Origin: Flavobacterium sp. I3-2
GTDB lineage: Bacteria > Bacteroidota > Bacteroidia > Flavobacteriales > Flavobacteriaceae
DNA: 64,000 bases
Assembly: GCF_013389595.1 (NCBI RefSeq)
Contig: NZ_CP058306.1
Location: 2,046,001-2,110,000 of the forward strand
Reading direction: 5' to 3'
The notes under the pieces are model-generated. The model worked only from the letters and a program-made list of their open reading frames with translations. It was not told the origin of the DNA and ran no database searches. Shown here one piece after another: positions 23,267 through 62,046 of this stretch. The translations under genes and the position numbers were made by a program. The stretch's first letter is position 1. Every line of letters begins with the position of its first letter.

Positions 23267-24352
23267 ATGGAACAATTTATAGTATCTGCGCGAAAATACC
23301 GTCCACAAACATTCAAAGATGTTGTAGGACAACAAACCATTACCAATACATTAATCAATGCTATTGATAATAATCATTTGGCGCAAGCGTTACTATTTAC
23401 TGGACCTAGAGGAGTTGGTAAAACTACTTGTGCCCGTATTTTGGCTCGAAAAATTAATCAAGAAGGCTATGATGACCCAACCGAAGATTTTGCATTTAAT
23501 GTTTTTGAGTTAGATGCTGCTTCTAATAACTCGGTTGACGATATTCGTAATTTAATTGACCAAGTAAGAATACCACCACAAACCGGAAAATATAAAGTTT
23601 ATATTATTGATGAGGTTCACATGCTTTCTTCGGCAGCTTTTAATGCATTCCTAAAAACATTAGAAGAACCACCAAAACATGCTATTTTTATTTTAGCAAC
23701 TACTGAGAAGCATAAAATTATACCTACGATTTTATCGCGTTGTCAGATTTTTGATTTCAAACGTATAACGATTGCTGATGCGAAAGACCATTTAGCAGAA
23801 GTAGCGAAAAGTCAAAATATTACTTATGAAGAAGATGCGCTGCAAATCATCGCTCAAAAAGCCGATGGTGCGATGCGTGATGCACTTTCTATTTTTGATC
23901 GCGTAGTTTCGTATTGTGGTAATAATTTAACACGTCAAGCAGTTGCCGAAAATCTAAATGTTTTAGATTTTGATTATTATTTGCGAGTTACCGATATGAT
24001 TATTGCTAATGATATTCCTAATTTACTTTTAGCTTACAACGATATTTTAGCAAAAGGATTTGATGGTCAGCATTTTGTTGCCGGTTTAGCCTCGCATTTT
24101 AGAAATTTAATGGTTTGTAAAAATCCAGAAACTTTGAATTTATTAGAAGTTAGTGATGAAAACAAACAATTATTTTTAATTCAAGCTCAAAAATTACCGA
24201 TTACTTTATTAATTGCTGGAATTAATTTAGCAAACGATTGTGATTTAAAATTCAAAACAAGTCAAAACCAACGTTTAATGGTTGAGTTATGTTTGATGCA
24301 ATTAGCATCGCTAACTCAAATGGATGAAAAAAAAAATCTAATCGGTTCATAA
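23267..24352 (+). CDS. dnaX: DNA polymerase III gamma (short product of dnaX)
   Basis: The zero-frame product, 361 residues. It is the AAA+ clamp-loader subunit that loads the sliding clamp at the replication fork. Walker A GPRGVGKT is at 46-53, Walker B DEVH at 115-118, the arginine-finger motif SRC at 157-159, followed by the collar domain (about 240-350). The four-Cys zinc module that follows Walker A in E. coli is absent. The frame ends 14 bases after a run of ten A at 24327-24336; reading on in the -1 frame continues the protein without a stop for 224 codons. The short form is thus a gamma-like ATPase plus collar. It could be real or could reflect a sequencing error in the A run. Confidence 0.88.
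   Translation: MEQFIVSARKYRPQTFKDVVGQQTITNTLINAIDNNHLAQALLFTGPRGVGKTTCARILARKINQEGYDDPTEDFAFNVFELDAASNNSVDDIRNLIDQVRIPPQTGKYKVYIIDEVHMLSSAAFNAFLKTLEEPPKHAIFILATTEKHKIIPTILSRCQIFDFKRITIADAKDHLAEVAKSQNITYEEDALQIIAQKADGAMRDALSIFDRVVSYCGNNLTRQAVAENLNVLDFDYYLRVTDMIIANDIPNLLLAYNDILAKGFDGQHFVAGLASHFRNLMVCKNPETLNLLEVSDENKQLFLIQAQKLPITLLIAGINLANDCDLKFKTSQNQRLMVELCLMQLASLTQMDEKKNLIGS
24327..24336 (+). other. A10 slippery run in dnaX (candidate recoding site)
   Basis: Ten A residues after GATG. The zero frame reads GAA AAA AAA AAT and meets TAA at 24350-24352. A -1 slip, or one extra A added by RNA polymerase, continues into a long open frame with the family-conserved FIIPPSFFK stretch. A 5-base stem TCGGT / ACCGA (24342-24346 / 24357-24361) followed by seven T lies just downstream. 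DnaX recoding at A runs is established in E. coli (ribosomal frameshift) and Thermus (transcription slippage). Confidence 0.7.
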
Positions 24353-25008
24353 TTCCACCGAGTTTTTTTAAACTTCAAACTGTAATTACAGAAGAAATTA
24401 AGAACGATAAAGTTTCAGAATCACCTTCTGAATCGTATTCTAATATTGCGCAAACTCAAGAAAACAAAGTTGAATCTGCAACTGAAAATCAAACTGATGA
24501 AATTCAGACTCAGAAAATCGTATTGAATACTCAAAATAATGAATATGCTGTTTCGGCCTTATCATTAAAAAGCATCAAACGAAAAAAAGAGTTAGAAGCT
24601 TCGTTAAGTAAAGCTGCAATTAATCCTGAAGATTTACCTAAAGAAGCATTTTCTTTTGAAGAAATGATTGAACATTGGAATTTTATTGCCGATCGTTTTT
24701 ACAAAACCGGACGTATGTTGATGTATTCGACCATGAAAATGTCTGTTCCTGAATTAAATGGAAATCTAATCCGAATCGAACTTCCGAACGAAGGTTCTAA
24801 GATTAGTTTTGATGAAAACAAATACGATTTGGTGAATTACCTTCGAAAGAAGTTAAACAATTATGCAATCGAAATTCACATTGAAGTTAATGAAGAAATA
24901 AAAATTAAAAAAGCTTTTACGATTGAAGATAAATACAATCAGCTTTTAGAAATTAATCCAGATTTAGAACTACTAGTTAAAACGTTTGATTTAAATTTAA
25001 AACAATAA
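24334..25008 (+). CDS. dnaX: DNA polymerase III tau-specific C-terminus (dnaX, -1 frame)
   Basis: The -1 frame downstream of the A10 run; joined to the first 356 residues it gives a protein of about 580 residues, the usual length for a flavobacterial DnaX. It begins KSNRFIIPPSFFKLQ, then a linker of about 50 residues rich in Glu, Ser, Thr and Gln, and a C-terminal domain from SALSLKSIKRKKELEAS to the end (FEEMIEHWNFIADRFYKTGR, LVNYLRKKLNNYAIEIHIEV). In E. coli the tau C-terminus binds the polymerase alpha subunit and DnaB. The first ATG inside is at 24523, but independent start there is unlikely because conserved residues lie before it. Confidence 0.8.
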   Translation, partial: KSNRFIIPPSFFKLQTVITEEIKNDKVSESPSESYSNIAQTQENKVESATENQTDEIQTQKIVLNTQNNEYAVSALSLKSIKRKKELEASLSKAAINPEDLPKEAFSFEEMIEHWNFIADRFYKTGRMLMYSTMKMSVPELNGNLIRIELPNEGSKISFDENKYDLVNYLRKKLNNYAIEIHIEVNEEIKIKKAFTIEDKYNQLLEINPDLELLVKTFDLNLKQ

Positions 25009-62008: not shown

Positions 62009-62046
62009 AAAAAAAAAACGTCTAACTAAAATTAGACGTTTTTTTG
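62009..62046. terminator. Bidirectional terminator (pepD / NlpE-like gene)
   Basis: A stem ACGTCTAA / TTAGACGT with a 6-base loop, a long A tract before it and a T tract behind it. Confidence 0.85.

Follow-up and report, generated by a model that had tools for sequence, protein, structure and literature searches.

A ten-A run divides dnaX in Flavobacterium sp. I3-2: a candidate site of programmed transcriptional slippage retained in most Bacteroidia examined

We analyzed a window of 64,000 nucleotides from Flavobacterium sp. I3-2 (contig NZ_CP058306.1, positions 2,046,001 to 2,110,000), in which the dnaX gene is divided between two reading frames of the forward strand. The zero frame (23267..24352, +) encodes a gamma-like product of 361 aa plus a TAA stop and is recognized by DnaX profile models. 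Close to its end lies a run of ten A (24327..24336, +), flanked by G before and T after, which is the candidate slippage site. The zero-frame TAA (24350..24352, +; tau+1 frame) starts on the 14th base past the run and overlaps the FIIP motif at its ATA-ATT codons. The third frame (tau-1 frame) is closed even earlier, by a TAA at 24339..24341 (+) that begins 2 nt past the run. From 24337 onwards, the -1 frame reads SNRFIIPPSFFK... and remains open until the TAA at 25006-25008, encoding a C-terminal extension of 223 aa plus the stop (24337..25008, +). One extra A in the message would join 357 and 223 residues into a protein of 580. The sequence-only reading had described this same split at A10, with tau in the -1 frame, and the sequence confirmed it.

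At the protein level, the N-terminal piece passed the cut-off of TIGR02397 in the profile search (E 1.6e-113) and matched positions 1-369 of the 614 in NF011531. The -1-frame piece matched positions 419-613 of the same 614-position model (E 8.5e-17); therefore, it is very probably the tau C-terminus, presumably joined to gamma via slippage. Neither piece alone reached the full-length NF011531 cut-off, and both together provide what characterizes DnaX, an AAA+ clamp-loader N-terminus and a tau C-terminus. The sole Pfam match of the tau piece, NAGLU_C, was under the cut-off and was discarded. When compared to 14 relatives from the genus, the tau extension presented identities from 38 to 52%, with differences that were commonest at codon position 3 and rarest at position 2. 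The genome consists of one contig of 3.55 Mb with 99.94% completeness and contains one full dnaX; three further matches were short and 29-43% identical. The window holds only one other A10 run (62009-62018), located between two larger ORFs, 17 nt past the stop of a 487-aa ORF.

We compared dnaX within the genus, the rest of the family outside the genus (hereafter, family), and the rest of the class outside the family (hereafter, class). The genus search matched 193 of 199 genomes; among the matches listed, open frames had around 360-415 codons, except for nine genomes with 590-614. We sampled 92 of the 193 matching genomes and deliberately included all nine open-tau genomes among the matches listed, so their share (9/92) is not a fair sample of the genus. 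The family sample comprised 129 of the 152 matches outside the genus (the remainder were chiefly the most divergent or at contig ends), and the class sample, 106 of the 142 matches outside the family. Apart from the tree counts, all the counts are uncorrected for shared ancestry.

The longest A run at the dnaX site had at least 9 A in 92/92 genus, 129/129 family, and 93/106 class loci, with exactly 10 A in 87, 110, and 72 of them, respectively. Run length ranged from 9 to 12 A in genus and family and from 9 to 11 A in those 93 class loci, and it was exactly 10 in 269 of the 314 loci with at least 9 A. A run of at least 9 A was missing in 13/106 class loci. Of 80 named relatives, 10 had no run of at least 6 A at the dnaX site, so parts of the class seem to lack the slippage cassette. 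These ten are loci L368, L371, L378, L382, L386, L394, L397, L398, L403, and L408; several of them are Bacteroidales, and one is a Bacteroides MAG. Outside the class, we read 26 of 30 genomes from the phylum (the anchor motif failed in the other 4) and found runs of 9-10 A in 10, A6 in 3, and no run of at least 6 A in 13. Loci L418, L433, L436, L437, and L439, from other classes, presented a split dnaX with A9-A10, nearby stops, and a weak or absent abutting hairpin.

The frame of tau relative to the DNA frame differed among groups. It was -1 in 81, 0 in 9, and +1 in 2 of the genus loci; -1 in 13, 0 in 113, and +1 in 3 of the family loci; and -1 in 22, 0 in 73, and +1 in 2 of the class loci, where 2 were undecided (contig ends) and 7 had no run of at least 6 A. 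The split state prevails in the genus (81/92 at -1), and elsewhere the run lies mostly within an open tau frame. Split dnaX genes were seen in Flavobacterium denitrificans, F. quisquiliarum, F. psychrotolerans, Aquimarina sp. RZ0, Halpernia humi, and Chryseobacterium lathyri, and tau was in the DNA frame in Aquimarina mytili, Aequorivita viscosa, and species of Pedobacter, Mucilaginibacter, Hymenobacter, and Rufibacter. Aligning relatives, as the sequence-only reading had proposed, returned a long run in every genus and family locus and a -1 split common to most genus loci. The same reading had named relatives with an open frame and no A run as the evidence against it. These were absent from genus and family, where all the open-tau-frame loci (9/92 and 113/129) retain 9-11 A, and were found among some wider-class relatives. 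In L335 (Flavobacterium sp. YO12), L017, and L007, A9 or A12 places tau in the +1 frame and therefore beyond the reach of a -1 ribosomal shift; these are single assemblies, and a miscount is possible.

On a quick FastTree of the partial protein (311 sequences), whole and split genes interchanged at least 37 times, and 20 label shuffles on the same tree gave 88-103 changes. At least 25 whole/split changes were found among the 267 sequences with exactly A10; therefore, the switches are not run miscounts. Shifted genes were 115 at -1 vs. 7 at +1, and the tree changes by direction were 34 for -1 vs. 7. Thus, as judged from these sequences, the product spelled directly by DNA appears to have switched many times. 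The distance from the run end to the ATA codon of FIIP is 12 bases in a split gene (L018) and 13 in a whole one (L038), and this difference could suggest how frame switches arise.

We consider it likely that dnaX yields here two clamp-loader subunits by programmed transcriptional slippage at A10. RNA polymerase copying the run would realign the all-A/T RNA-DNA hybrid and release mRNAs with a varying number of A. The unslipped mRNA would meet the stop beginning 13 nt past the run, and the third-frame mRNA the one 2 nt past it, either of them giving gamma; an mRNA with one extra A (or the equivalent modulo 3) would be read to 25008 and give tau. In most genus and family relatives, a nascent-RNA hairpin abutting the run probably stimulates slippage. 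Since such an mRNA pool would feed all three frames, the frame spelled by DNA would hardly matter, and lineages could thus have switched repeatedly between two states: tau in DNA with gamma slipped, or gamma in DNA with tau slipped, as in the window. The sequences themselves show the run, its frames and stops and how far these are conserved, the hairpin of the relatives, and the switching; the occurrence, rate, and direction of slippage and the effect of the hairpin are inferred. The excess of -1 genes suggests that slippage mostly adds one A, and a ribosomal -1 shift predicts the same bias. The proposal of the sequence-only reading that gamma and tau are both produced, in a programmed way, at the A run is well supported at the sequence level by the comparison of 327 genus, family, and class dnaX loci.

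Slippage would deliver mRNA to all three frames, so that an early stop is expected in each of the two non-tau frames. Both of these had a stop within 30 nt in 92/92 genus, 127/129 family, and 89/91 class loci (308/312), compared to 19-35% at control positions farther along the same ORFs. This count included the 312 loci with at least 9 A and a decided tau frame, leaving out 13 without such a run and two class loci on contigs that stop close to it. The window has two elements of the Thermus type, a run of at least 9 A (A10) and stops near the run in both non-tau frames. In the -1-split genus loci, the tau-1 stop was located within 9 nt in 81/81, even though the amino acids encoded in that stretch vary. 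Its position was looser among the 22 split loci of the class (within 9 nt in 50%, vs. 28% of the controls).

Codon choice at the motif also bears on these stops. In genes with tau in the DNA frame (tau-0) and an otherwise unguarded tau+1 frame, the first codon of [IV]I[PA] was ATA in 82/82 cases of Ile and GTA in 8/8 cases of Val, and the background of Ile codons before A had ATA in 198/601. The motif codon is free when an earlier stop guards the frame: tau-0 genes with such a stop had one each of GTA, ATT, and GTC, and split genes had ATC in 7/9 and ATA in 2/9. The comparison was confined to the genus and family genes with the motif, which 29 tau-0 and 8 split genes lack. Thus, to judge by codon usage, the third-frame stop is kept by synonymous codon choice. 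This bias counts against the ribosome because, in tau-0 genes, the tau+1 frame is never read after a -1 ribosomal shift. Third-frame stops kept by synonymous choice could thus help, from sequence alone, to tell polymerase slippage from a shift of the ribosome.

Upstream of the run, we defined an abutting hairpin as one that ends no more than 2 nt from the run and is at least as stable as -5 kcal/mol. It was present in 84/92 genus, 105/129 family, and 34/93 class loci, compared to 2.3, 2.9, and 6.2% of the control windows, respectively. The 26 nt adjoining the run upstream had a mean fold of -7.9, -7.1, and -5.7 kcal/mol in genus, family, and class; elsewhere, 26-nt folds were about -0.2 to -3.8 kcal/mol, and the energy dip was position-specific. 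Against synonymous recodings, the mean z of the abutting hairpin was -2.2 in the genus, -1.8 in the family, and -0.9 in the class, and 78, 54, and 18% of the loci were in the best 5% of recodings; the support for a hairpin is weak in the class outside the family. The commonest form, CTCTATCA-CTTT-TGATGGAG, would have eight pairs and a four-base loop directly 5' of A10. Double-sided pair changes numbered 66 vs. at most 46 in 500 shuffles. When the register was fixed, 70.5% of the cells paired vs. 37-59% in slid registers, with 66 double changes vs. 15-43; neither the pairs with a double change (7 vs. at most 8 when slid) nor the extra pair types (25 vs. at most 29) were in excess in this count. 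Because the pairing register is shifted in some species, the fixed-register count is blurred, and we relied chiefly on folding each sequence separately against synonymous and positional controls.

The 26 nt upstream of the run in the window form no stable abutting hairpin (-2.4 kcal/mol, z -0.6), and a stem directly 5' of the run is lacking there. Six further genus loci had a weak abutting fold and still kept the run; therefore, the hairpin is not essential everywhere. Loci L007, L008, L011, L020, and L331 presented CCTG before the run, T rather than G after it, and no stable abutting hairpin; in all five, the run (A10; A12 in L007) was still kept, with stops close by in the other frames. The species of the window has another possible upstream hairpin (24282..24319, +), with TTGAGTTA (24282-24289) facing TAACTCAA (24312-24319). 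Its stem ends 7 nt before the run, unlike the abutting 8-bp hairpin of the relatives. The 46-nt fold of this region reached -14.5 kcal/mol (z -3.5), and 0.2% of 500 synonymous recodings were as stable. Since two folding-window sizes were tried and the stem was not found in L005, the best-scoring relative, we regard it as a possible substitute for the abutting hairpin.

Downstream of the run, the sequence-only reading had pointed to a 5-base stem and seven T. The TCGGT/ACCGA stem (24342..24361, +) does exist, with arms at 24342-24346 and 24357-24361 and about -4 kcal/mol in a 30-nt fold. It is not conserved in relatives: across nt 3-33 past the run, no fold in the 92 genus loci was as stable as -5 kcal/mol, and windows downstream of the run were no more folded than background. 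Thus, the stem is not a conserved element and is probably not functional, and we rejected stem and T7 as stimulators; the conserved downstream stem loop of the E. coli type was not found. In many relatives, though not in the window, GGAG immediately precedes the run, at about 4 nt from the heptamer. Ribosomes of Bacteroidia reportedly do not recognize Shine-Dalgarno sequences, according to the portion of PMC9976891 available; therefore, stimulation of this kind by GGAG is unlikely.

The strongest rival explanation is programmed -1 ribosomal frameshifting on A_AAA_AAA or A_AAA_AAN. Ribosomes in the gamma frame would then make tau in the window, and those in the tau frame would make gamma in relatives. 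We judge it unlikely, though it deserves to be weighed. An A10 run holds A_AAA_AAA in any phase, and G follows in 83/87 genus A10 runs, which places A_AAA_AAG in frame. The window has A_AAA_AAA in frame and lacks A_AAA_AAG (AAT instead), and the family A10 runs of phase 1 are mostly followed by T (69 of 105; G in 20 and C in 16), neither of which favors the ribosome. The bias of 115 to 7 for -1 suits a ribosomal shift, and a single shift direction is given as a general sign of the ribosome in the text seen of PMC3711429. However, the seven +1-type genes cannot give tau by a -1 shift, with the caveat that assembly errors are possible there. On the side of the ribosome, the reversed dnaX genes have been described as ribosomal frameshifting, with E. 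coli-like stimulators in Chlorobium phaeobacteroides, in the part of PMC5009743 consulted. The tRNA-Lys repertoire would also be compatible with it: around the best 30 of 114 tRNA matches, there was only tRNA-Lys(UUU), in six tandem copies, and no CUU; we set this repertoire aside as uninformative for telling the mechanisms apart.

The 114 tRNA matches of this 3.5 Mb genome include many tandem copies of one isoacceptor: six tRNA-Lys UUU at 1966872-1967641, six tRNA-Gly at 853502-854125, five tRNA-Phe at 1893044-1893524, and Pro-Ser-Arg units at 3549171-3549931. The assembled contig terminates just past a tRNA array of this kind.

Several features of the locus have no place in a ribosomal shift, which requires neither a third-frame stop nor a run of ten. 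An upstream hairpin that ends at the run, and that a ribosome decoding the run would probably have melted, has no function in such a shift, and these genes show no conserved downstream structure or likely Shine-Dalgarno stimulator. Run length points in the same direction. The class A10 loci were in codon phases 0, 1, and 2 in 10, 52, and 10 cases, and a run of ten in every phase would be expected if its length were determined by the RNA-DNA hybrid, described as 9-10 bp in the text available of PMC5009743. Background codon use predicts that only 55, 43, and 37% of genes in genus, family, and class would encode Glu-Lys-Lys with no G at any of the three wobble positions. Of the two mechanisms named in the sequence-only reading, RNA polymerase slippage (Thermus type) is therefore the one favored, and the ribosomal -1 shift (E. 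coli type) less so; a mixture of both may operate.

Long A runs are mutable, and phase variation at the DNA level would have the run differ between cells, with some making gamma only and others tau. We find this very improbable. The run is occasionally 9, 11, or 12 A, but its prevailing length of 10, the extra stops kept in both frames, and the codon-position pattern of constrained coding sequence in the tau C-terminus of split genes all argue against it. Besides, cells without tau are expected to replicate poorly. Finally, despite homopolymers being error-prone, a sequencing error (really 11 A) or a pseudogene has a negligible probability, and the miscount considered in the sequence-only reading is ruled out in practice, given that the -1 split is found in 81/92 genus loci (80 with A10), that whole and split genes interchange among exact-A10 sequences, and that this one-contig genome has one full dnaX whose C-terminus still matches the family model.

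Returning to slippage, we lean slightly towards a broader history, in which a hairpin-plus-A10 cassette would be old and common to most Bacteroidia, with slippage so efficient that the DNA frame is nearly free to change; the roles would then have been swapped dozens of times, with Flavobacterium as one large reversed clade. A frameshift in an essential gene usually kills the cell. A site of polymerase stuttering appears to be kept across most of this class and to allow such mutations to be tolerated, a latitude that lineages would have exploited repeatedly. The conservation also suggests that gamma is wanted rather than accidental in a phylum far from E. coli and Thermus. The relatives offer a natural stem-loop series for testing how nascent RNA structure controls slippage. 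At the annotation level, one-frame gene finders would probably miss the tau C-terminus in split genes. Slippage that gives a truncated product is regarded as hard to judge by comparison in the available text of PMC1088944.

The upstream hairpin, the class-wide A10 with both frames guarded, and the repeated switching were not found in the literature searched, for which subscription papers and supplements were mostly out of reach. The split A10 arrangement itself is already known, since Antonov et al. 2013 reported two-ORF dnaX genes, 9 of 17 (12 genera) with exactly 10 A, and proposed transcriptional realignment (PMC3711429, as far as its text was available). Those genes resemble ours in the poly-A split, the DNA-level -1 frameshift, and the gamma stop soon after the run, and this arrangement is present in the window and common to 81/92 genus loci. 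The dnaX section of that paper describes no upstream hairpin, third-frame stop, or whole-frame relatives, and the word Flavobacter is absent from its main text.

The dnaX homopolymer frameshift of Blochmannia, in the portion of PMC3017870 seen, is a different case: it belongs to endosymbionts with decaying genomes and lies past the gamma/tau site, in the part of the gene specific to tau. E. coli dnaX is the same gene with the same two products and an A-rich site (PMC5009743, in the text available); unlike it, the genes studied here have no conserved downstream stem, a longer run, and a guarded third frame, in a class for which Shine-Dalgarno pairing is reported to be blocked.

For the hairpin, a close parallel is Roseiflexus IS630, in which RNA polymerase is made to slip by a stem loop that the nascent RNA forms immediately 5' of the motif, as reported in the accessible part of PMC5009743. 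Most Flavobacteriaceae dnaX examined share with it a perfect stem and a 4-nt loop directly 5' of the slippage motif; the dnaX copy of the window has no abutting stem, unlike IS630. The Roseiflexus case is a transposase gene with U5C5 that loses one C, whereas dnaX here has A10 and probably gains A.

For the gene as a whole, a close parallel is Thermus thermophilus dnaX, with a sense-strand A run (A9 there), stops in both other frames, and gamma and tau from one gene (PMC5009743 and PMC1088944, in the text available, which mentions no 5' hairpin). Its mRNAs carry one or more extra A, in falling proportion, according to the part of PMC5009743 consulted. In Thermus, the DNA spells tau and slippage gives gamma, as the same text has it; in the window, the arrangement is reversed.
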